Assembly: GCF_002224675.1 (NCBI RefSeq)
Contig: NZ_NMPZ01000010.1
Coordinates: forward strand, 62,001 to 126,000
DNA length: 64,000 nt
Direction: 5' to 3'
DNA from: Segatella copri
GTDB taxonomy: Bacteria; Bacteroidota; Bacteroidia; Bacteroidales; Bacteroidaceae
Positions 3 through 22,101 of this stretch are shown here, one piece after another. Below the pieces are notes generated by a model. It searched no databases, had not been told where the DNA came from, and was given only the letters and a program-made list of their open reading frames with translations. The number at the start of each line of letters is the position of its first letter. Position 1 is the first letter of the stretch. The position numbers and the translations under genes were made by a program.

Positions 3-1475
3 AATCATACCGACGTAATCAACGTGGGCGCAACAACTGTTGGTAAAGATAACGGTGTAGATACAAGCTGGATTCAGTTTGCAATCAAATGCAGCAGAGA
101 CGAATCTAGCAGTAAATACAGCATAGATAAAACGAGCAGAGGTACTGCATGCAGTTATCCTGGCACGGAATATTCTAGTGATCTCTACACTGTAGAGGAA
201 TTCTTGAAATATCTCTATGATAATGCAGAATCAAGTATCTGGACAAAAAGTGACAGTAAAGGAAAGTATATCGATGCAACATGCTTTATCAGTGAGAACT
301 ATTACAAGAATCTCACATGGAATCAATATGTGAATGATGTTGATAAGCGTGCCTTCTATGTTGCTAATGAGGTTAAAACCAGTAATGATGGCAGAAGCGT
401 TTACGCTCAGACTCAATATGGTTTGACCCAGTATAACATTCAGACCTTCTATGACAGAAGCAAAGCTGGAAGCATCACTGCCTATGGTTGTGAGACTATT
501 AATGATGAGGAAGGTAAAGATTTTTCTGTCAATGGTGGTGGAAGCAAGTATAATTCTTCAGGTACCGATACATGGAATGGACGTAGCAATATGGTTGCGG
601 ACATAAATAAGAGTACAGACACCTGGAAAACTCTTAAAGACAACAGTTCTCTGATCAAAGCGTGTATGTCTAGAAACCGAGACCTGAATGGAGATGGCAA
701 AATCAGTGATGATGAAATTCGCTGGTATGCCCCTACTATTTCTCAGTATATTGGTATCTGGATTGGTGAGGAGATTATGAGCGGTGAGTCTAAACTCTTC
801 AATAAAGCCACATCTACACTCAGCACTAGCAATGATCCTGGATGTCGTATGTTGTATTATAGTTCAACATACAATGAGAACACTTACTTCTCTGAAGAAG
901 GTTTGGCAACCAATCATAACAATTCTGCCTATCCTCCAAAATTGGTACGCTGCCTTCGCAATTTGAAATCAAACGATGTGGGATATAACAAAACTCCAGA
1001 CAAGTACTACACGTACGAAAGTTCTGTGGTAACACTGAACAATGTTGATGAAAAAGCATTGAACACATCAGGAGAACAAGGTGAATTGAATGCGCACACA
1101 GAACGTTCTGCACTCAATAAACCTGCCAAAAAGTTCAAGATTTCAAAAGAGAAATATTATGGTGAAAGATCTAAAGACTGGCGGGGCAACTGGTATTGGA
1201 CAGGAGTTACGCCAACTCAGGAGCATGTAGTAGATGGTACATTTAAATGTTACAACAACTATGAGGAAGGTGACAAAAAATGGAGAGTTCCAAACCAAAG
1301 AGAATTATCAGTAATGTTTCTTGTTGATAAAGACAAGATTACAAACACCTACTGTAGAACTATTTTCTCCAATACAAGCTTCAGAAAGTCTTGGACATAT
1401 AATGGGAATTTTTCAATGGATGTTAGCAAGTGGAATGCTACCGGCTCTGTCCGCTGTATAAAGGCACAAAAATAG
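3..1475 (+). CDS. Surface or fimbrial-type protein, 5' end outside window (DUF4906-like)
   Basis: The frame is open from the window edge, so the start codon and any signal peptide lie upstream; the GTG at 24 is only the first start-like codon. About 490 residues are visible. They are rich in Ser, Thr, Asn and Tyr, as in secreted Bacteroidales proteins. Near residue 225 is an acidic loop, DLNGDGKISDDE, resembling an EF-hand/dockerin calcium loop. The C-terminus has a WRVPNQREL motif and ends in VRCIKAQK, a pattern I associate with DUF4906 and fimbrillin-related Bacteroidales surface proteins. The family call is tentative. A rho-independent terminator follows within about 40 bases. Confidence 0.55.
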   Translation, partial: NHTDVINVGATTVGKDNGVDTSWIQFAIKCSRDESSSKYSIDKTSRGTACSYPGTEYSSDLYTVEEFLKYLYDNAESSIWTKSDSKGKYIDATCFISENYYKNLTWNQYVNDVDKRAFYVANEVKTSNDGRSVYAQTQYGLTQYNIQTFYDRSKAGSITAYGCETINDEEGKDFSVNGGGSKYNSSGTDTWNGRSNMVADINKSTDTWKTLKDNSSLIKACMSRNRDLNGDGKISDDEIRWYAPTISQYIGIWIGEEIMSGESKLFNKATSTLSTSNDPGCRMLYYSSTYNENTYFSEEGLATNHNNSAYPPKLVRCLRNLKSNDVGYNKTPDKYYTYESSVVTLNNVDEKALNTSGEQGELNAHTERSALNKPAKKFKISKEKYYGERSKDWRGNWYWTGVTPTQEHVVDGTFKCYNNYEEGDKKWRVPNQRELSVMFLVDKDKITNTYCRTIFSNTSFRKSWTYNGNFSMDVSKWNATGSVRCIKAQK

Positions 1476-8996: not shown

Positions 8997-9031
8997 ATTA
9001 AAAAAGCGGAAACCCCGAAGGATTCCCGCTA
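8997..9031 (-). terminator. Rho-independent terminator of the aldolase gene
   Basis: On the minus strand AGCGGGAATCC and GGGGTTTCCGCT form a stem around a TTC loop, followed by TTTTTTAATG. Confidence 0.85.
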
Positions 9032-9058: not shown

Positions 9059-10072
9059 TTAGTCGAGGTTAGCCAACTTGTTGTCAGAATGAAGAACATC
9101 CTTGATCTTGTGGCTATAGAGGTCAACCATATACTCACGAGCCTTACCGCAGTACTGACGTGGGTCGAAGTACTCTGGGTGCTCAGCCAATGTCTCACGA
9201 ACACCTGCTGTGAAAGCAAGACGAGAGTCAGAGTCGATATTGATCTTGCAAACAGCGCTCTCAGAAGCCTTAGTCAACTGCTCCTCTGGGATACCAACTG
9301 CATCTGGCAACTTACCACCGAACTTGTTGATGATATCAACATACTCCTGAGGAACTGAAGAAGAACCGTGGAGAACGATAGGGAAACCAGGAAGCTGCTT
9401 CTCAACTGCTGCCAATACGTCGAATGCCAATGGAGGAGGAACGAGGTGACCAGTCTTAGGGTCACGTGTGCACTGCTCTGGCTTGAACTTGTAAGCACCG
9501 TGAGAAGTACCGATAGAGATAGCCAATGAATCAACACCTGTACGTGTAGCGAAATCAACAACCTCCTCAGGCTTTGTATAGTGAGACTCCTCAGCTACTA
9601 CGTCATCCTCAACACCAGCGAGGACACCGAGCTCACCCTCTACAGTTACACCGAACTGATGAGCGTAATCAACAACCTTCTTTGTCAATGCAATGTTCTC
9701 CTCGTATGGAAGAGCAGAACCGTCGATCATTACAGAAGAGAAGCCGAAATCTACACAGCTCTTACATGTCTCGAAGCTATCACCGTGATCGAGGTGGAGA
9801 ACGATCTCAGGATGGTTGCAACCCAACTCCTTAGCATACTCTACAGCACCCTCTGCCAAGTAACGGAGCAAAGTAGGGTTAGCATACTTACGAGCACCCT
9901 TAGATACCTGGAGGATAACTGGTGACTTCAAGTTTGAAGAAGCCTGGATGATAGCCTGGAGCTGCTCCAAGTTGTTGAAGTTGAAAGCAGGAACGGCCCA
10001 ACCGCCCTTGATAGCTCTTGCGAACATTTCCTTAGTGTTCACAAGACCGATTTTCTTGTAATCTACTGCCAT
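9059..10072 (-). CDS. fba: Class II fructose-1,6-bisphosphate aldolase
   Basis: 337 residues. It catalyses the reversible cleavage of fructose-1,6-bisphosphate to dihydroxyacetone phosphate and glyceraldehyde-3-phosphate (cytosolic glycolysis and gluconeogenesis). The Zn-dependent class II signature is clear: LHLDHGDSFE with metal-binding His, VEGELGVLAGVED, the phosphate-binding GTSHGAYKF and VLHGSSSVP. The length is that of the longer class II type. It has its own promoter and terminator, so it is a single-gene unit. Start MAVDYKKIG fits the family. Confidence 0.96.
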   Translation of the reverse strand: MAVDYKKIGLVNTKEMFARAIKGGWAVPAFNFNNLEQLQAIIQASSNLKSPVILQVSKGARKYANPTLLRYLAEGAVEYAKELGCNHPEIVLHLDHGDSFETCKSCVDFGFSSVMIDGSALPYEENIALTKKVVDYAHQFGVTVEGELGVLAGVEDDVVAEESHYTKPEEVVDFATRTGVDSLAISIGTSHGAYKFKPEQCTRDPKTGHLVPPPLAFDVLAAVEKQLPGFPIVLHGSSSVPQEYVDIINKFGGKLPDAVGIPEEQLTKASESAVCKINIDSDSRLAFTAGVRETLAEHPEYFDPRQYCGKAREYMVDLYSHKIKDVLHSDNKLANLD

Positions 10073-10260: not shown

Positions 10261-11487
10261 TTATTTGCTAATTACACTTTGCAATTTGTACTCCCGAACG
10301 GCATAAGCCAAGACGATGAGGAAACCGACAAAAGGTACCACGAAAGGCAGGGTGACATGGGTGGTATCGGCTATCATTCCCATCAGCAGGAAGCCGCATC
10401 CACCTATCGGAGTCATCATCAGGAGCGAGGATGCCGACTTGGTGAGATTGCCCAATCCCGTGAGGGCGATGCTGAAGATGGTAGGGAACATAATTGCCTC
10501 GAAAAGATAGTTGCCCACCAGGGCTACCAGCGACACGATGCCCAGATCGCAAAGCACCAGTCCGATGCAGACCACGCTGCCCACGGCACAGATGAGGAGC
10601 ATGGTGGTTGCCTGGATATGGCGCATGATCCAGCTGCCCAGGAATCTGCCTACCATGAAGAACGCCAGGGCAAGGGTGAGGACGAGAGAGGCGGTGCGGT
10701 CGCTCATCCAATGCATACCGGTGACGAAATTGATGAAGTAGGAATTGATGGAAATCTCGGCTACCTCGTAGCTCAGGAGGGCGAAGAGGCCGAAGACGAA
10801 CATCCTGTGGTTGGCAAAGAGCTTGGCGATATTGCTGCCCTTCGCCTTGTCTTCCGTCGTCTGCTGGTGCTGGATTTCCGGGAGATCGACACGGGAGAAC
10901 ACCACGGCGATGGCAAGCACCAGAACACCCAGGATGGCATAAGGTATGACCACATTGCCGCCCTGCTGCGTATCATTGAAGAGGAACTGACCGATGCAGA
11001 AGGTGGCAAAGATGCTGCCCAGTCCATTGAACGACTGCGAGAGGTTCAATCGGCTGGTAGCGGTCTCCCTGGCACCCAGTTCGGTAACGTATGGATTGGC
11101 GGCTGTTTCGAGGAACACCAGTCCGCATCCGATGACGAAGAGGCAGAAGAGGAAGGCTGAGAAGCTGCCTATCGATGCCCCCGGAATAAAGAAGATGGCT
11201 CCCAGACCGAAGAGCAGGAGGCCGAACACCACGCCCCGGCGATAGCCATACTTATTGATGAAGATGCCCGCCGGTATAGCCATGAGGAAATAACCCAGAT
11301 AGGTAGTTACCTGGATCAGGGCAGACTGGGTGATACTGATGTGCAGGGCATTCTGGAAGTGCTTGTTGAGCACATCGAGAATGGCACGCGCGAAGCCCCA
11401 CAAGAAGAAGAGCGACGTGATGAGAATGAACGGGACAAGATATTTCTTGTCGCTCACTGAATGGTTTTCTGTTTCTTGGTTCAACAT
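10261..11487 (-). CDS. MFS sugar transporter, FucP-like
   Basis: 408 residues with about 12 hydrophobic segments. The pattern FFLWGFARAILDVLNKHFQ and GLVFLETAANPYVTELG matches the fucose:H+ symporter (FHS) family of MFS inner-membrane transporters. The Asp in the first motif and the Glu in the second correspond to the substrate/proton residues of E. coli FucP. The family includes L-fucose and glucose/galactose transporters, and the sugar cannot be decided here. It starts 63 bases after the PEP-binding protein gene on the same strand with no terminator between them, so co-transcription is likely. Confidence 0.85.
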   Translation of the reverse strand: MLNQETENHSVSDKKYLVPFILITSLFFLWGFARAILDVLNKHFQNALHISITQSALIQVTTYLGYFLMAIPAGIFINKYGYRRGVVFGLLLFGLGAIFFIPGASIGSFSAFLFCLFVIGCGLVFLETAANPYVTELGARETATSRLNLSQSFNGLGSIFATFCIGQFLFNDTQQGGNVVIPYAILGVLVLAIAVVFSRVDLPEIQHQQTTEDKAKGSNIAKLFANHRMFVFGLFALLSYEVAEISINSYFINFVTGMHWMSDRTASLVLTLALAFFMVGRFLGSWIMRHIQATTMLLICAVGSVVCIGLVLCDLGIVSLVALVGNYLFEAIMFPTIFSIALTGLGNLTKSASSLLMMTPIGGCGFLLMGMIADTTHVTLPFVVPFVGFLIVLAYAVREYKLQSVISK

Positions 11488-11550: not shown

Positions 11551-14500
11551 CTATTCCTGCGGATACAGGACAGCTCCCTCCTGCTTCTTGCCATCCATCA
11601 GGATTCTGAGCGGACGGTCGAAGCGTACATGGCGCACATACTGCGTCTCTTCTACGGCTGGCATCGCATCGAGCATCTCCTTGTTTACGAAGCCTCCCTC
11701 TTCGATATTGGTATCTACCGTGAAATAGCCCACGCCGAAAGAGGTGAGGTTCTGGAAGAAGTGGGTGCCCTGACTCGGATCGATGTTGTAATTCTTCAAT
11801 GCCACCTCTACGATGATGCGGGCGGCACTGATATGCGGCCACTTGACCGGTACGCCCAGGTAATGATCACTCGATCCCCAGCGGCCCGGACCTATCAGCA
11901 CATAATTCTTGCCATCTGCCAGGAACTTGCGGTTGATGCGCTCGATATCATCGGCTACATAGAAGTTGTTCATCGCCGAGAAGTGGTCATCGTACTTCAC
12001 ATACACCACATCGGTGACATCCTCGCTGATGCCATGGCCCAGGGAGTTGTGGGAACGGAGCAGACAGTCGGCATCCGGTATCGCCCTGACATCCTCGTCG
12101 AGCATCTCCTTGGCATCCACGATCGGACGGATCTGGAGGAGATAGAAATCGCAGGTCTTGTCGGCATGGATATTGCAGGCAAACTCAATCTCCACCGGTC
12201 GGCGCATCGCCTCGGAACCGCACTTCATCGACATCTGCATGAGTTCCGGCAGGGGTACCACATCGTGCTGGAGCACTCCGGCAAAGGTGATGAGCTTGCG
12301 GCCGGTTTCATACACACCGTCGTTGATGACCTGATCGTAAGGGTCGAAGGTAGAGGCGATGTAGTTGAGACTCTGGTCTTCTACCGCATCCTTCACACGG
12401 AGCTTGAGGATATTGAATCCGTCATCCACCTTGAAGTCATCGCCCACGTGCTTCATGTCGAGGGCGTAGAACTGGGTCTGGGTATCGCGCAGCGCCATCT
12501 CCGTCTCGGAAGTCTGCAGCACCTGATGCGGATGATACGGACAGACGCGGAGGGTCTGACCACCATCCACGATATACTTACCCAATCCGAGGGCAAGACT
12601 GGCTATACCCTCCTCTGCCTCCTCATCGCCGATAGGATAATAGTTGAGCGAACGGAGCACGCCACTCATCGTAGGATAATAGCGGGTGCCGTAGTCCTTG
12701 CCCACCACCTCCTGCAGGATTACCGCCATCTTCTCCTGGTCGATGACGTTGCGGGTGGCGGTCATGTATGCCTTGGAATCGCGATAGAACACCGAGGCAT
12801 ACACGCCCTTGATGGCGCAGGCGAGCATCTGGAGCATCTGATACTTATCAGCGAGATAAGGTATCATATAGGTGGAATAGATGCCGGCGAAAGGCTGATA
12901 GTGGGCATCCTCGAGCAGCGAACTGGAACGGATGGCGATAGGACTCTTCGTTGCCTCGAAGAAGGTGAAGAAGTCGGCTATCAGCGAATCGGGCAGCTGC
13001 GCATGGAGGAAGTGCTTCAGGATTTCATCATCGCTGGCATCGCTCAAAGCTATCGGATAGAGATTGTTGCTCATCATGAACTCGTCGAAGATATCGGTAC
13101 AGAGCACCACGGTCTTCGGAATCTGCACGGTGGCATTCTCATACTGGTTGAACTCAGGATGGCGCTTGATGATGTTGTCGAGGAAGGCTAGTCCCCTGCC
13201 CTTTCCGCCCAGCGATCCTTCGCCGATGCGGGCAAAATGGGCATACTTATCGAACTTCATACGGTCGAACACGGCAACCACGCCCAGGTTCTTCATGTGA
13301 CGGTACTGCACGATGGCATCGAAGATGATCTGTCTGTGGGCATCCACATCCTGCAGCTTCTCCCAGGTGACGTGCTTCAGGAAGGCGGAAACCGGGAAGA
13401 TGGCACGGGCACAGAGCCAGCGGCTCATGTGGTTGCGGCTGATATGATAGAGCATCGAATCGTTGGGGATGTTGAAGATGTTATCCTGCAACTCCTTCAG
13501 ACTGCGGATGCGCATGATTTCCTCGTGGGTTTTCGGATCGCGGAAGATGAAATCGCCGAAGCCCATGTGCTCCTCCATCAGGCGACGGAGATCCACACTC
13601 ATCTTCTTGGAGTTCTTATCTACAAAGCGGAATCCCTCGGCTTCTGCCTTGGCACGGTTGTCGCTCTCGGAACTCTCGATGATGAGCGGCACGAACGGAT
13701 CGGTCTTGCGGATGTAACGGAAGAGACGCAATCCGGCATCAGGACATTTCTCACGTCCGAAGGTATCGGTGCCGTGCTCGGGATTCGCCTCCTGCTCCAC
13801 CTCGTTGCCGAAAGCCTTGGCGGCACTCTTCAACGGGAATCGGGCATCGCTGATGACACCCAGGGTATTGTTGGAATACTTATCGTAGAGTTTCTGCGCC
13901 TCTTCGTAGGTACGGGCGAGCACCACCTTCGGACGGCCACGCATTCGCATCGTGGCAGCATGGCGGTTGAGGGCTTCCTTGGAGAAGTTCTTGCTCTGCT
14001 CCAATATATAATTATAGAGATTAGGCAATATAGAACTATAGAAACGGATAGAATCTTCTACCAGGAGAATCATCTGCACGCCTGCCTCCCGGATATCGTG
14101 CTCCAGGTTCATCTTATCCTCTATGAGCTTAATGATGGAGAGGATGAGGTTGGTGTTACCCAGCCAGCAGAATACGTAATCGAAGATGCTGAGGTCTTCG
14201 TTCTCCATTCGCTTGGTGATGCCGTGGGAGAACGGGGTGAGTACCACGCAATGGATATTCGGGAACTTGCCCTTGATATCGCGCGCCACATCGAAGGCAT
14301 CGTTGTCGGCATTGCCCGGCATACAGATGACGAGGTCGATGACAGTGGAGCGCAGTACCTGGGCTGCCTCTTCGGTGGTTGAGACCTGGGTGAAGGTTGG
14401 GGGATAACGGAGTCCCAGCTCCATATACTCATTATATATCTTCTCCTCGATGCGTCCATCATCTTCTAGCATGAACGCATCGTAAGGGTTGGCTACAATC

Positions 14501-14592
14501 AAGACATTGTAGATACGTCGCATCATGAGATTGACAAATGATACGTCTTTCAAATAGAATTTATTCCACTCTTGAGGTACATTATTTTCCAT
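11551..14592 (-). CDS. PEP/pyruvate-binding domain protein with two receiver-like domains
   Basis: 1013 residues. Residues ~26-160 (VLIVANPYDAFMLEDD) and ~172-330 (MILLVEDSIRFYSS) look like response-regulator receiver folds. From ~450 there is a PEP-synthase/PPDK-type ATP-grasp domain: GSLGGKGRGLAFL, IAIRSSSLLEDAHYQPFAG and FYLLQIRPIVD. A tail with LIGPGRWGSSDHYLG follows. The swivelling phospho-histidine domain (GGxTxH) and the PEP-binding barrel of true PEP synthase are absent, so annotation as phosphoenolpyruvate synthase would be misleading. Related proteins occur in other Bacteroidetes; their function is unknown to me. It is divergent from rlpA and precedes the FucP-like gene. Confidence 0.8.
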   Translation of the reverse strand: MENNVPQEWNKFYLKDVSFVNLMMRRIYNVLIVANPYDAFMLEDDGRIEEKIYNEYMELGLRYPPTFTQVSTTEEAAQVLRSTVIDLVICMPGNADNDAFDVARDIKGKFPNIHCVVLTPFSHGITKRMENEDLSIFDYVFCWLGNTNLILSIIKLIEDKMNLEHDIREAGVQMILLVEDSIRFYSSILPNLYNYILEQSKNFSKEALNRHAATMRMRGRPKVVLARTYEEAQKLYDKYSNNTLGVISDARFPLKSAAKAFGNEVEQEANPEHGTDTFGREKCPDAGLRLFRYIRKTDPFVPLIIESSESDNRAKAEAEGFRFVDKNSKKMSVDLRRLMEEHMGFGDFIFRDPKTHEEIMRIRSLKELQDNIFNIPNDSMLYHISRNHMSRWLCARAIFPVSAFLKHVTWEKLQDVDAHRQIIFDAIVQYRHMKNLGVVAVFDRMKFDKYAHFARIGEGSLGGKGRGLAFLDNIIKRHPEFNQYENATVQIPKTVVLCTDIFDEFMMSNNLYPIALSDASDDEILKHFLHAQLPDSLIADFFTFFEATKSPIAIRSSSLLEDAHYQPFAGIYSTYMIPYLADKYQMLQMLACAIKGVYASVFYRDSKAYMTATRNVIDQEKMAVILQEVVGKDYGTRYYPTMSGVLRSLNYYPIGDEEAEEGIASLALGLGKYIVDGGQTLRVCPYHPHQVLQTSETEMALRDTQTQFYALDMKHVGDDFKVDDGFNILKLRVKDAVEDQSLNYIASTFDPYDQVINDGVYETGRKLITFAGVLQHDVVPLPELMQMSMKCGSEAMRRPVEIEFACNIHADKTCDFYLLQIRPIVDAKEMLDEDVRAIPDADCLLRSHNSLGHGISEDVTDVVYVKYDDHFSAMNNFYVADDIERINRKFLADGKNYVLIGPGRWGSSDHYLGVPVKWPHISAARIIVEVALKNYNIDPSQGTHFFQNLTSFGVGYFTVDTNIEEGGFVNKEMLDAMPAVEETQYVRHVRFDRPLRILMDGKKQEGAVLYPQE

Positions 14593-17047: not shown

Positions 17048-18043
17048 TTACGCATCCTTGTCTAATTTATACTTTGAAATATCAGTTCCAAAAGACAGAT
17101 TCAGACTCTCGAGCAAATCATCAAGCTCTGAGAGCGATTTCTTACCGAAGTTGCGGAACTTCAAGAGGTCAGTCTTGTTAAACTGAACCAAATCACCCAA
17201 GGTATCTACATCAGCTGCCTTCAAGCAGTTGAGCGCACGAACACTGAGGTTCATATCTACGAGACGAGTCTTGAGCAACTGGCGCATGTGAAGAACCTCC
17301 TCATCAAACTCCTGGTTGGTATCCTGATCAGGACTCTCCAGGGTAATCTTCTCATCAGAGAAGAGCATGAAGTGATAGATAAGGATCTTCGCAGCCTCTT
17401 TCAGCGCATCCTTAGGACTAATGGAACCATCTGTTGTAACTTCGAGTACGAGCTTGTCATAGTCGGTCTTCTGTTCAACACGATATGGCTCAACCGCATA
17501 CTTTACGTTACGGATAGGGGTGTAGATGGAATCGATTGGGAGAACGTTAACGTCTGTGCAGAATTGACGATTCTCATCAGCAGGAACGTATCCACGTCCC
17601 TTATTAATTGTCAGATCAATCTGCATCGAAGCTTTGGAGTCTAAATGACAAATCACCAAATCAGGGTTTAACACTTCAAATCCAGTCAGATACTTGCCTA
17701 TATCACCAGCCTTGAATTCTGTAGAATTCTCAACGGTGATACTAACTTTCTCATTCTCGAATTCTTCTACTACTTGCTTGAATCGAACTTGCTTGAGATT
17801 CAAGATAATGTTGGTAACATCTTCCTTTACACCAGGAACTGAAGAGAACTCGTGCTCAACACCCGCGATGCGGATGGTGTTCACAGCGTAACCCTCCAAT
17901 GATGAAAGGAGAATGCGGCGCAAGGCGTTACCGATGGTAACACCAAAGCCAGGCTCCAACGGACGGAACTCGAACTTTCCGAACTGGTTGTCAGCCTCCA
18001 GCATTACTACTTTATCAGGTTTTTGAAATGCTAATATCGCCAT
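17048..18043 (-). CDS. rpoA: RNA polymerase alpha subunit
   Basis: 331 residues. The N-terminal dimerisation domain ([20 protein letters not shown]) nucleates core assembly. The C-terminal domain ([36 protein letters not shown]) contacts promoter DNA and activators. It sits between rpsD and rplQ as in the classical alpha operon. No truncation seen. Confidence 0.98.
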
Positions 18044-18055
18044 TAATTTAATGAT

Positions 18056-18661
18056 TTATTTAGAGTACAACTCAACGATTAACTGCTCCTTAATATTCTC
18101 TGGAATGTCAGCACGCTCTGGCTTGTGCAAGAACTTGCCACTCTTAGAATTGTCGTCCCACTCAATCCATGGGTACTTGCTATGATTGAAACCAGCAAGT
18201 GCTGCCTCGATTACCTCGAGAGACTTAGACTTCTCACGAACGGCAACTACCATACCTGGCTTAACTGCAAATGAAGGGATATTAACTACCTTGCCATCAA
18301 CAGTGATGTGCTTGTGACCCACCAACTGACGTGCAGCAGCACGAGTAGGAGCGATACCAAGACGGAATACCACGTTGTCGAGACGGCACTCGAGATTCTG
18401 GAGAAGAACCTCACCAGTAATACCCTCAGCCTTAGCAGCCTTCTCAAACATATTACGGAACTGACGCTCTAATACACCGTAAGTGTACTTAGCCTTCTGC
18501 TTCTCTGCCAACATGACACCGTACTCAGACATCTTGCGACGACGGTTGTTGCCATGCTGTCCAGGAGGGAAGTTTCTCTTGGACAAAACTTTGTCTGCGC
18601 CGAAGATTGGCTCACCAAAACGACGCGCAATTTTAGATTTCGGACCTATATATCTAGCCAT
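18056..18661 (-). CDS. rpsD: 30S ribosomal protein uS4
   Basis: 201 residues. It binds 16S rRNA early in small-subunit assembly. The S4 RNA-binding domain is clear ([40 protein letters not shown]). The N-terminus lacks the zinc-binding Cys cluster found in some S4 proteins. It is 12 bases upstream of rpoA, so translation may be coupled. Confidence 0.98.
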
Positions 18662-18703
18662 AATATTTATAAAATGCTATAATGTTTGTATCAATGAATG
18701 CTA

Positions 18704-19093
18704 TTATACACGACGACGCTTTGGAGGGCGACATCCGTTGTGTGGTAATGGAGTTACGTCAACGATCTCAGTTACCTCGATACCTGCACCGTGTACGGCA
18801 CGGATAGCAGACTCACGACCGTTACCTGGACCCTTTACGTATGCCTTAACCTTGCGAAGACCAAGGTCGAAAGCTACCTTTGCACAATCCTCTGCAGCCA
18901 TCTGAGCAGCATAAGGAGTGTTCTTCTTAGAACCACGGAAACCCATCTTACCAGCTGAAGACCAAGAGATAACCTGACCCTCGTTGTTAGCAAGAGATAC
19001 AATGATGTTGTTGAATGAGCTGTGTACGTGGAGCTGACCGATTGCGTCAACGCGTACGTTTCTCTTCTTAGATGTTGCTTTTTGCTTTGCCAT
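18704..19093 (-). CDS. rpsK: 30S ribosomal protein uS11
   Basis: 129 residues; a platform protein of the 30S subunit. [20 protein letters not shown] and the C-terminal [18 protein letters not shown] are diagnostic. Unusually for this window it has a strong Shine-Dalgarno sequence, AAGGAGGAA (GGAGG at 19107-19103), 9 bases before the ATG. Confidence 0.98.
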
Positions 19094-19113
19094 AATTAAT
19101 TTCCTCCTTAGAA

Positions 19114-19494
19114 TTACTTAGTAGCCTTCTTCTTATTAGCAACAGTCTTCTTCTTACCCTTGCGAGTACGAGCATTATTCTTTGTGCTCTGACCGCGAAC
19201 TGGAAGACCATTACGATGTCTAACTCCACGATAGCAACCAATATCCATCAGTCGCTTAATGTTCATCTGGATCTCAGAACGGAGATCACCTTCAACCTTG
19301 AACTCAGCGCCGATAATTTCACGGATCTTGGCTGCCTGATCGTCAGTCCACTCGCTGACTTTCAGGTCACGGTTTACACCTGCCTTATCCAATATCTTTG
19401 CTGAACTACTTCGACCGATACCATAGATATAGGTCAATGCGATTTCGCCACGCTTATTCTGGGGCAAATCTACTCCAACAATTCTTATTGCCAT
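19114..19494 (-). CDS. rpsM: 30S ribosomal protein uS13
   Basis: 126 residues. It contacts tRNA and the large subunit from the 30S head. [20 protein letters not shown], then [17 protein letters not shown] (helix-two-turn-helix) and [20 protein letters not shown] identify it. The C-terminal Lys-rich tail reaches into the tRNA sites. An internal promoter candidate lies just upstream, making this the first gene of an alpha sub-operon. Confidence 0.98.
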
Positions 19495-19541
19495 TGTTTA
19501 ATAAAAAATTAAAAAATTAATACTTTGCGTTAAAAGCGGTG

Positions 19542-19549
19542 CAAAAGTA
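19542..19549 (-). promoter_or_regulatory. Candidate internal promoter before rpsM
   Basis: TACTTTTG on the minus strand in the 98-base gap between rpmJ and rpsM, the widest gap in the spc-alpha part of the cluster. The -33 element is weak. Confidence 0.45.
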
Positions 19550-19592
19550 CAACTTTTTTTTGAAACAGCCATACTTTTACAGAACTTTAACA

Positions 19593-19709
19593 TTAGCCCT
19601 GACGCAATTTCATCTTAGGGTTCTTCTTGTTGATAACGAAGAGACGACCCTTACGACGTACGATCTTGCAATCAGCTGAACGCTTCTTCAATGATGCTCT
19701 TGTCTTCAT
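19593..19709 (-). CDS. rpmJ: 50S ribosomal protein bL36, zinc-free type
   Basis: A 38-residue gene. [20 protein letters not shown] is followed by [18 protein letters not shown]. Only one Cys remains, where zinc-type bL36 has three Cys and a His that bind Zn, so this is the C-minus form. It lies 17 bases after infA. Too short for typical ORF cut-offs, but the context and sequence are decisive. Confidence 0.95.
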
Positions 19710-19726
19710 AACCTTATATGTGATAA

Positions 19727-19945
19727 TTATTTGTATCTAAAAACAATTCTACCCTTAGTCAAGTCGTATGGACTCATTTCCACCTTCACCTTATCACCAG
19801 GTAAAATCTTGATGTAATGCATTCTCATCTTACCAGAGATGTGGGCAGTAATGTCAACACCATTCTCCAATTCAACGCGGAACATAGCATTTGATAATGC
19901 CTCTACAATTGTTCCATCTTGCTCAATAGCGGCCTGTTTTGCCAT
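19727..19945 (-). CDS. infA: Translation initiation factor IF-1
   Basis: 72 residues, a single OB-fold (S1 domain) that occupies the A site of the 30S subunit during initiation. [38 protein letters not shown] and [15 protein letters not shown] are typical. Placed between map and rpmJ, as in many Gram-negative and Gram-positive spc operons. Confidence 0.97.
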
Positions 19946-19947
19946 AA

Positions 19948-20748
19948 TTAAATTTTTTGTCCTTCTAAATGTTCAACTTCTACGAATGAAGATAAAATTT
20001 CAGCTTTACCTTTTCGAACAACGATTGTATGCTCAAAATGAGCAGCTGGTTGACGATCTCTAGTAACTATGCTCCACTTGTCGGGGAGCAAGCCAATTTG
20101 ACGGTCGCCCATTGTTATCATCGGCTCTATAGCCAAGCACATACCTTCCTTTAACAGAATGCCGGAACCTCGACTGCCGTAATTACGAACGGGAGGATCC
20201 TCGTGCATAGCCCTGCCAATGCCATGACCTGTTAGCTCTCGTACTACTCCATAACCATATTGCTGGCAATGAGTCTGTACGGCGTAACCAATATCACCCA
20301 AATGCTTTCCTGCCACAGCCTGTTCGATACCCAGGTACAAAGATTCTTTAGTTACCTTAAGGAGTTGTTGAACATCGGAAGTTATCTCTCCAACAGCGAA
20401 AGTATAGCAACTGTCACCGTTGAAACCTTCTAAAAGGGTGCCGCAGTCGATGGAGATAATATCACCATCCTTCAGCACGTCCTTCTCACTAGGAATACCA
20501 TGTACTACTACATCATTGATGGAAGTACATATACTAGCGGGAAAAGGCTCTCCATAAGGATTAGGAAAATTCTTAAACGTTGGAATCGCACCGTGATCAC
20601 GGATGAACTCCTCAGCTACCTTATCCAAATGGAGAGTCGTTACACCTGGTTTTATATGTTTACCTAATTCCGCAAGCGTTGCACCAACGAGTTGGTTAGC
20701 CTTGCGCATCAGGTTAATTTCATCCTCTGTCTTCAGAAATATCTGCAT
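19948..20748 (-). CDS. map: Methionine aminopeptidase, type I
   Basis: 266 residues. It removes the initiator Met from nascent proteins. The dinuclear metal ligands are visible: [16 protein letters not shown] (two Asp), [13 protein letters not shown] (His), LAIEPM (Glu) and a final EHTIVV (Glu). It lacks the N-terminal zinc-finger extension of type Ic enzymes. It lies 15 bases after secY and 2 bases before infA. Confidence 0.97.
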
Positions 20749-20763
20749 TTCAAAAGATAAAGA

Positions 20764-22101
20764 TTAATATGCAGCAACACCACCCTGACGAGTATGGCCT
20801 GAATTGAGAAGACCATCATAGTGGCGCATAAGCAAATGACTCTCGATCTGCTGCAATGTGTCAATCACAACACCTACCAAAATCAACAGAGAAGTACCTC
20901 CGAAGAATTGTGAGAAGGCCTGCTGCACATCAAGAAGTCCTGCAAGAGCTGGCATAATCGCAATAAATGCAATAAATAATGAACCTGGTAAAGTAATACG
21001 AGACATTACGGTATCAATGTACTCAGCGGTATCCTTACCTGGCTTAACACCTGGAATGAAACCATTGTTACGCTTCATATCCTCCGCCATCTGAGTTGGG
21101 TTCAATGTAATAGCAGTGTAGAAATATGTAAACGCAATCACGAGGATTACATAAATTACATTATAAAGTAAACTGCGGTTATCCATCAGCTGCTGAACAA
21201 CGCTACTTGCATTTTCAGACTGGTAGCGAACTACTGCCAATGGAATGAACATCAAAGCCTGCGCAAAGATGATAGGCATTACGTTGGCTGCGAAAAGCTT
21301 CAATGGGATGTACTGACGTGCACCACCATACTGCTTGTTACCAACCAAGCGCTTAGCGTACTGAACCGGGATCTTACGTGTACCCTGTACCAGAAGAATT
21401 GAGGCACAAACTACAGCGTAGAGAATAAGGATCTCTACAATGAACATGATCAAACCACCACCAGAGATAGCCTGCAAACGAGAGGTCATCTCCTGCACGA
21501 ATGCCTGAGGCAAACGAGCGATGATACCAATCATAATGATGAGAGAGATACCATTACCTACTCCCTTATCCGTGATACGCTCACCAAGCCAGAGAATAAA
21601 CATACTTCCTGCTGCAAGGATGATAGTAGCTGGAATCATAAAGACGGTCCAGCTAATACCCGTTGCCAAAGCGTTAGCAGCCTGCATCTTCAAATTCAGA
21701 AGGTAACTAGGAGCCTGAAAGACCAGGATGGCTACAGTCAGGACTCTAGTGTACCATTGTATTTTCTTGCGGCCGCTCTCGCCCTCGCGCTGCATCTTCT
21801 GGAAGTAAGGTACAGCGACAGCAAGAAGCTGCATAACAATTGAAGCTGAGATATAAGGCATAATTCCCAATGCGAAGATAGACGCATTAGAAAATGCACC
21901 ACCAGAGAACATGTCCAAAAGCGACATAAGACCGCCTGAGGTCTGCGACTGCAATTTTTCCAACATGCTCGGATTGATACCCGGAAGTACCACAAACGAG
22001 CCAAAACGGTAAATAGCCGTAAACAGAAGAGTAATGAGAAGTCTCTGACGGAGGTCCTCAATCTTCCAACAGTTCTTTAGTGTCTCAATAAACTTTTTCA
22101 T
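20764..22101 (-). CDS. secY: Preprotein translocase subunit SecY
   Basis: 445 residues with ten membrane segments; the channel subunit of the SecYEG translocon in the inner membrane. FGSFVVLPGINPSMLE, GIMPYISASIVMQLL (plug/TM2 region) and NPTQMAEDMKRNNGFIPGVK mark the family. Three bases separate it from rplO, so translation is probably coupled. Confidence 0.98.
   Translation of the reverse strand: MKKFIETLKNCWKIEDLRQRLLITLLFTAIYRFGSFVVLPGINPSMLEKLQSQTSGGLMSLLDMFSGGAFSNASIFALGIMPYISASIVMQLLAVAVPYFQKMQREGESGRKKIQWYTRVLTVAILVFQAPSYLLNLKMQAANALATGISWTVFMIPATIILAAGSMFILWLGERITDKGVGNGISLIIMIGIIARLPQAFVQEMTSRLQAISGGGLIMFIVEILILYAVVCASILLVQGTRKIPVQYAKRLVGNKQYGGARQYIPLKLFAANVMPIIFAQALMFIPLAVVRYQSENASSVVQQLMDNRSLLYNVIYVILVIAFTYFYTAITLNPTQMAEDMKRNNGFIPGVKPGKDTAEYIDTVMSRITLPGSLFIAFIAIMPALAGLLDVQQAFSQFFGGTSLLILVGVVIDTLQQIESHLLMRHYDGLLNSGHTRQGGVAAY

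Follow-up and report, generated by a model that had tools for sequence, protein, structure and literature searches.

The gene at positions 11,551 to 14,592 of a 64,000-nucleotide stretch of the Segatella copri genome (contig NZ_NMPZ01000010.1; this whole stretch is called the window) encodes a protein of 1013 residues, in which two receiver domains (REC1 and REC2) and a linker precede an ATP-grasp domain of the phosphoenolpyruvate (PEP) synthase type and a C-terminal (CT) domain. Here, we describe this protein as a probable variant of the dikinase phosphotransferases that gene order links to nitrogen assimilation, and it is more interesting than first thought. Our reading, to which we give about an even chance, is that it belongs to the PEP-synthase/PPDK lineage, has lost the PEP/pyruvate barrel and serves as a histidine phosphotransferase that uses ATP, is gated by its receivers and regulates glutamate dehydrogenase (GDH). 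The domain anatomy, the kept residues of the ATP site and of REC2, the swivelling-type fold of the CT domain with its invariant histidine, the loss of the barrel and the linkage to GDH genes are supported by the computation, and we infer that H944 is phosphorylated, that REC2 gates the reaction and that GDH is the target. The partnership with GDH is the strongest part of this reading, phosphorylation of H944 comes next, and a covalent action on GDH is the weakest part.

In the AlphaFold2 model of the whole protein (45 sequences; mean predicted local distance difference test score, pLDDT, 82.3; predicted TM-score, pTM, 0.73), the order of domains is receiver 1, receiver 2, linker, ATP-grasp domain (residues ~441-835) and CT domain (836-1013). 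The original prediction, made from the DNA letters, had recognized an ATP domain of the PEP synthase type, and a match to PPDK_N (PF01326) at residues 460-833 (E 2.3e-39) bears this out. We aligned 148 members of the protein family, distinct sequences of five forms with many close relatives among them; they were picked by BLAST match to the ATP and CT parts of the window protein, a selection that favours conservation, and the five "short" rows of the alignment include a split gene of the A-type (L112). K464 is found in 147 of these 148 members, the remaining one being cut there, and R555, E803 and Q820 are found in all of them. The catalytic roles of the equivalents of these four residues are known from PPDK. 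No match to the PEP/pyruvate TIM barrel (PF02896) was obtained in the window protein with Pfam at E ≤ 1, and the chain ends after the CT domain. That classical PEP/pyruvate chemistry is not possible for the protein by itself, as had been proposed, is supported. A scan of the whole genome for the classical phosphohistidine (His) domain, PF00391, at E ≤ 1e-5 gave one place, a separate open reading frame (ORF) of 910 residues on another contig that is a PPDK by size and motif. This is the one place found at that threshold where the own genome could supply a His domain in trans, a search that did not extend to the neighbours of all orthologues.

The original prediction had also stated that only the N-domain of PEP synthase is present and that the swivelling His domain is absent. 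The first statement does not stand, as the ATP domain ends near residue 835 and is followed by a conserved domain of 178 residues that takes the place of the His domain and has a similar fold. The second is probably wrong: a remodelled domain with an invariant histidine, unseen by sequence methods, is the best reading of residues 836-1013, and PF00391 itself has no Pfam match in the window protein at E ≤ 1. When modelled alone (79 sequences), the CT domain reached a pLDDT of 91.5 and a pTM of 0.90, and its elements run in the order strand, strand, helix, strand, short helix, strand, helix, strand. The third helix (CT residues 109-116), which comes after strand 89-97, starts with H944; the catalytic histidine of PPDK likewise opens its helix. 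H944, R904, E929, G942, S940 and Y956 are invariant in the 148 members.

Structural comparison was made with VIA-align, which re-ranks Foldseek candidates and for which, by its own note, a Z near 7 is often reached without a clear match. Ten of the 12 best rows for the CT domain are His-type domains. At the top stands rifampin phosphotransferase (RPH) 757-867, with Z 7.1, a root-mean-square deviation (rmsd) of 3.2 and 110 residues aligned; PPDK 385-510 aligns with CT residues 1..177 (Z 6.7, rmsd 3.3, 115 aligned), and the C-terminal domain of pyruvate kinase, which is akin to the His domain, gives Z 6.8 and 6.7. Many lower rows (aconitase, chaperonin apical, PA and RraA domains) belong to the same class of swivelling beta/beta/alpha folds. 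When the whole model was searched, dikinase-type chains made up 16 of 50 rows, and seven of these reach model residues 1010-1012 and end in the His domain (2ols, 5hv2, 5hv3, 1dik, 1ggo, 1kbl and 1jde), where the ranges give the ends of the alignments only. PEP synthase 2ols covers model residues 441..1012 with its residues 4..467 (Z 24.2, rmsd 4.5, 368 aligned), and PPDK 1dik covers the same residues with 3..511 (Z 17.5, rmsd 5.3, 350 aligned). Judged by this modelled fold, the CT domain is likely a remodelled phosphohistidine domain of the swivelling type, and H944 is probably phosphorylated from ATP.

The two receiver-like folds that had been proposed ahead of the ATP domain are both seen in the AlphaFold2 model, and a non-receiver N-terminus was not found. 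The best VIA-align row is PorX for residues 26-163 (Z 13.8, rmsd 2.5, 121 aligned) and PmrA for residues 172-345 (Z 13.1, rmsd 2.4, 115 aligned). The Pfam Response_reg match at residues 66-140 lies below the cut-off in the window protein (16.5 against 30.2 bits) and above it in three of eight relatives. We aligned the 134 members that have receivers (125 A-type and nine B-type). The acceptor column of REC1, M91 in the window protein, holds Met in 117 members, Thr in 13, Ile in two, Leu in one and a gap in one, with Asp in none, and position 144 at the end of strand 5 is Lys in only one. In REC2, on the other hand, E179, D249, K326 and a Ser or Thr at position 307 are kept in all 134, and D180 in 132. 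Since the acceptor-site residues are lost in REC1 and kept in REC2, the alignment marks REC1 as a pseudo-receiver, whereas phosphorylation of REC2 can be expected from its residues. The phosphorylatable aspartate looked for in both receivers is therefore present in REC2 (D249) but not in REC1 (M91). The window protein has REC folds in common with the response regulators PorX and PmrA, including a full acceptor site in REC2, but it differs from them in having a dikinase-type half as output and a REC1 without acceptor.

No match to HisKA or HATPase_c was found in the window protein with Pfam at E ≤ 1. A gene for a PAS-HisKA_3 histidine kinase directly adjoins an A-type gene in one locus (L130, 9422-10858), and a relative of it (44% identical) does so in another (L131, 6673-8115); these kinases are candidate partners of REC2. 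In the linker region, weak matches to DUF5752 under the threshold were seen in six of the eight relatives scanned and none in the window protein; the linker may be a real but diverged domain.

The conserved neighbour of the gene is GDH. Of the 60 genomes in the relatives set, 55 have a match to the protein family, as do 103 of the 121 genomes in a Bacteroidaceae sample, and full-length members occur in 25 genomes, besides the window's own, of a phylum set of 198. The phylum search had given matches in 104 of the 198 genomes, most of which were receiver-only, below 35 bits, and were dropped. Neighbouring GDH genes were identified by Pfam (PF00208/PF02812); the GDH counts in the phylum and Bacteroidaceae samples are lower bounds taken from the matches listed, and the typing of GDH in the Bacteroidaceae sample covers the GDH rows of genomes holding the protein family. 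In the phylum sample, a GDH domain lies within 3 kb of at least 28 of 32 full-length members and within 500 bp of at least 26, a count from which the own genome (28/33 when included) and all receiver-less forms, whether short, mid or long, were dropped; GDH is upstream on the same strand in 27 of those 28. In the relatives set, after incomplete members at contig ends were dropped (G011, G025, G033 and other fragments), GDH is found within 3 kb of 18 of 49 A-type and two of 10 B-type genes. In Bacteroidaceae, GDH is within 3 kb in at least 33 of 103 loci and within 25 kb in at least 42, and at least 10 loci have two GDH genes within 10 kb. In at least 15 of the 103, a convergent gdh has the family gene downstream of it at a distance of up to 10 kb, and in at least six of these the distance is below 1 kb. 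With about two GDH genes per 3.5 Mb, chance would give such linkage in less than 1%, by a rough estimate.

The linkage persists in different settings. When the four genes nearest to the family gene on either side were counted in 137 loci, GDH came up in 51 of them and the runner-up among unrelated families in 10. Flanks of 3 kb or more on both sides are available for 75 A-type loci, and GDH lies within 3 kb in 29 of these. Four arrangements occur: GDH is upstream and divergent in 11 loci, upstream on the same strand in 10, downstream on the same strand in six and convergent in two. On a quick FastTree tree of the 75 loci, the arrangement changes at least eight times. L130 and L131 contain two full-length copies each, and every copy is accompanied by a GDH of its own. 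The form of 572-579 residues follows a 428-residue GDH in three loci (L122-L124), and that GDH is 32-34% identical to the A-linked GDH of L121. In Parabacteroides distasonis, a divergent gdhA lies 195 bp from the family gene and a second GDH lies ~3.5 kb downstream. Taken together, the family protein is very probably a partner of GDH. The regulatory character that had been proposed for the protein is supported, and as the conserved neighbour is GDH, nitrogen assimilation is a likelier theme than the sugar state.

Several known proteins come close to the window protein. RPH from Listeria (5hv1, 5hv6, 5fbu) is the closest sequence in the PDB and the closest fold; it has the PPDK_N ATP-grasp domain in common with the window protein, and its His domain resembles the CT domain. 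RPH also has no PEP/pyruvate barrel, and its substrate-binding domain lies between the ATP and His domains. The window protein differs from RPH in lacking the rifampin-binding domain, so that the CT domain directly follows PPDK_N, in its remodelled His-domain sequence, in the fused receivers and in the linkage to GDH. PEP synthase and PPDK (2ols, 1dik) have the same order of an ATP domain and then a swivelling-type domain, with ATP-site residues in common, whereas the window protein has neither the PF00391 sequence match nor the barrel and carries receivers in front, and its genome has the separate PPDK-like ORF. We propose that ATP would be bound by the ATP-grasp domain (K464, R555, E803 and Q820), and that the CT domain would then swivel so that H944 could accept the phosphoryl group. 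This cycle would be gated by REC2, through the state of D249, in combination with the pseudo-receiver REC1. The phosphoryl group, or a conformation driven by it, would finally reach GDH, whose activity would shift with the nitrogen or energy state. Since the short form of the family consists of the ATP domain and the CT domain only, the acceptor would be another protein rather than a small molecule for which a third domain provides the binding site. That the protein acts on GDH directly and covalently is, in our judgement, rather unlikely.

Several observations weigh against this reading. As to the CT domain, when 148 CT domains were aligned by HHalign with 54 classical His domains taken from the phylum genomes, the local probability was 0.1, and a forced global alignment was uninformative; we therefore make no claim of homology from sequence. 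Pfam matches in 79 CT domains were scattered, with none in more than three members and no PF00391 among the families listed, and Foldseek on the CT domain returned nothing at E ≤ 0.001. A structural Z of only ~7 is weak by itself. The other nine of the 16 dikinase-type rows either miss the CT domain or have no bearing on it: five stop at model residues 825-831, two break off at chain residue 737, short of the His domain, and two are chains of the ATP domain only. The loop ahead of H944 is poorly modelled (residues 938-944, pLDDT below 50 in the full model). As to GDH, it is absent within 3 kb in 70 of the 103 Bacteroidaceae loci, among the matches listed, and in 31 of the 49 A-type loci of the relatives set. 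GDH is found in at least 183 of the 198 phylum genomes and is thus far commoner than the full-length members, so GDH does not need the protein, and 18 of the 121 Bacteroidaceae genomes have no match to the protein family at all. We compared GDH from 10 genomes lacking the family with GDH from 10 that have it, together with another 21 GDHs of this type that had been fetched; no lost candidate for a phospho-acceptor was found, and only M147 and E393 were changed, in half of them; a GDH site lost together with the family was searched for, and none was convincing. In the window's own genome, the one GDH match is on contig 13 (47762-48496) and none is beside the family gene, so that the protein is kept there without the linkage. 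Twelve of 21 other genomes of the genus (≥90% completeness) have two GDH matches, compared with one in the own genome, and the missing GDH looks like the kind mostly linked to the family in the genus.

Other explanations have to be considered. The dikinase half could be a new type of histidine kinase in an internal phosphorelay, passing the phosphoryl group from ATP to H944 and on to D249 of its own REC2, with GDH or its gene controlled by binding. The fusion of receivers to the dikinase half, and the acceptor Asp, Lys and Ser/Thr kept in REC2 of all 134 members, would fit such a relay, but receiver-less forms occur beside GDH, and the dikinase half therefore works without REC2. Moreover, since a PAS-HisKA_3 kinase gene adjoins the family gene in L130, and its relative in L131, an ordinary kinase may feed REC2 there, although the neighbours were not scanned systematically for kinases. 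We consider the relay improbable. To a similarly low degree we credit a metabolic enzyme, i.e. a dikinase-type phosphotransferase acting on a small molecule of glutamate metabolism with the receivers as its switch. Known enzymes with a PPDK_N-type ATP domain phosphorylate small molecules, RPH is both the closest PDB sequence and the best fold match, and the linkage to GDH fits a shared pathway. What speaks against such an enzyme is that no third, substrate-binding domain is present, the form of 572-580 residues being an ATP domain and a CT domain alone, and that the receivers, the repeats that look GAF-like by eye and the nucleotidyltransferase domain in various forms point to regulation.

The original prediction saw the protein as a sensor or regulator, and it is quite improbable that the protein is an idle sensor of ATP or energy whose CT domain is new, unrelated to the His domain and not involved in phosphotransfer. 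The lack of a link to the His domain at the sequence level and the low structural Z would agree with it, but forms whose neighbours differ retain H944 and the residues of the ATP site, a conservation for which an idle sensor would have no use, and the CT domain occupies the place of the His domain. That the family merely rides beside GDH through inherited gene order, as the patchiness of the linkage in Bacteroidaceae (at least 33/103) and its absence from the window's genome might suggest, is very improbable, because different arrangements with their at least eight changes, several GDH subfamilies and distant dikinase forms all keep the linkage, and no other unrelated neighbour family comes near it (10 against 51 of 137 loci).

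If a receiver-gated phosphotransferase acting on GDH is indeed what the family provides, two-component signalling would have a new output, perhaps a new type of kinase, and the dikinase fold, known for small-molecule acceptors, would have a use in acting on proteins. Ammonia assimilation via GDH feeds dominant gut and rumen bacteria, and to our knowledge the control of GDH activity in Bacteroidota is poorly understood. Being linked to GDH and combining receivers with an ATP/His phosphotransfer unit, the protein offers a concrete candidate, open to testing, for a GDH regulator, and it is widespread yet unstudied in gut-type bacteria. A 1996 paper by Baggio and Morrison, cited in the reference list of PMC4539542, reportedly deals, by its title, with one or more trans-acting genes that lie downstream of gdhA in Bacteroides thetaiotaomicron and affect the activity of GDH. 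As the family gene is downstream of a convergent gdh in at least 15 of the 103 Bacteroidaceae loci, it is a candidate for this gene. It is conceivable, though short of probable, that a dikinase has turned into a signalling kinase whose receiver-gated phosphohistidine chemistry switches GDH on and off in Bacteroidota, a nitrogen control unlike PII/GlnD/GlnE, and that this is the trans-acting gene of 1996. BT1970 and BT1973 are, as we presume, the two GDH genes of B. thetaiotaomicron, and no paper with these numbers was found. Papers of 1987-88 are said to describe reversible inactivation of GDH in Bacteroides fragilis, and our literature search found none. Judged by titles and the beginnings of abstracts, none of the papers listed by our searches deals with this protein family. 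A relative beside gdhA in Parabacteroides distasonis (WP_041525632.1), with an identity of 61.1% across 572 of the last 574 residues, is annotated as "PEP/pyruvate-binding domain-containing protein" in a record that gives no function. In the available part of an article on Prevotella ruminicola 23, two GDH genes and their transcription are described and the word dikinase does not occur (PMC5552732).

Other forms of the family differ in what accompanies the core. B-type proteins are longer (1115-1550 residues), and at the N-terminus they carry at least one repeat of GAF-like appearance, as judged by eye. In L037 (5397-9590), L038 (3711-8363) and L039 (6837-11075), B-type paralogues are extended at the N-terminus by a long stretch; by eye, the extensions of L037 and L038 contain repeats resembling a GAF-type sensor, and a Pfam scan of two of the paralogues gave no named sensor domain. 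An A-type and a B-type gene in tandem are followed by a GDH gene in L027 (6769-13259), L028 (6641-13085) and L036 (5862-12330), and such a tandem is possibly a pair of sensor and effector. The short form (572-580 residues; L121-L124) is an ATP domain plus a CT domain alone. Longer receiver-less forms have 776-1066 residues; among three scanned, a nucleotidyltransferase domain (PF01909) was found in those of L121 and L129 and not in that of L126 (778 residues). The nitrogen regulators GlnD and GlnE also have a nucleotidyltransferase domain, which is an analogy. Three loci hold a run of gdh (428 residues), a protein of 572-579 residues and a receiver-less protein of 1061-1065 residues with the same core (L122 4762-11022, L123 5600-11837 and L124 4960-11192). 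In L121, it is the 1060-residue counterpart that carries the nucleotidyltransferase domain, and the run is interrupted by an A-type gene and a second GDH. The family gene in L112 (4826-7828) is split at the ATP domain into ORFs of 454 and 545 residues, by either a frameshift or an assembly error.

Coordinates of the features in and around the family gene are given below.

Table 1. Features of the family gene and its downstream neighbours, in positions of the window.
Feature	Positions	Strand	Basis
Whole ORF, REC1-REC2-linker-PPDK_N-CT	11551..14592	minus	1013 aa, ATG start, uninterrupted
REC1, degenerate receiver, residues ~25-165	14098..14520	minus	fold in model; acceptor place is M91, no Lys ending strand 5
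REC2, complete active site E179/D180, D249, S307, K326; residues ~170-343	13564..14085	minus	fold and alignment
Codon of D249, predicted REC2 phospho-acceptor	13846..13848	minus	end of strand 243-249; Asp in 134/134
Linker domain, residues ~345-440	13273..13560	minus	Pfam scans of window protein and 8 relatives
PPDK_N ATP-grasp domain, residues ~441-835, with K464, R555, E801/E803, Q820	12088..13272	minus	Pfam 460-833
CT domain, residues 836-1013, proposed remodelled swivelling phosphohistidine domain	11554..12087	minus	fold comparison
Family motif GPGRWGSSD, residues 901-909, in CT	11866..11892	minus	member alignment
Codon of H944, proposed phosphohistidine, motif S-Q-G-T-H-F-F	11761..11763	minus	148/148; first residue of CT helix 109-116
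FucP-like major facilitator superfamily (MFS) transporter, 63 bp downstream	10261..11487	minus	TIGR00885, 275.3 bits against cut-off 280.4
Class II fructose-bisphosphate aldolase gene, next in same run	9059..10072	minus	family-profile matches
Terminator-like hairpin after aldolase gene, strongest in scan	9005..9030	minus	terminator scan

The original prediction had noted that a FucP-like transporter gene follows in probable co-transcription. The adjacency on the same strand is confirmed, and a terminator scan found no site in the 63-bp gap between the two genes. As that scan gave no excess of sites (five, against a mean of 6.6 in shuffles), co-transcription is plausible rather than shown. The linkage to the transporter is not conserved: of the 94 fetched members whose flanks extend to 3 kb or more on each side, one has FucP within 3 kb, besides the window. 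Since it is so rare among members, the adjacency says little on function, and we rejected it as a functional clue. Upstream on the same strand (17048-22101), rpoA, the gene for ribosomal S4 (18056-18661) and secY (20764-22101) form ordinary ribosomal-operon surroundings.

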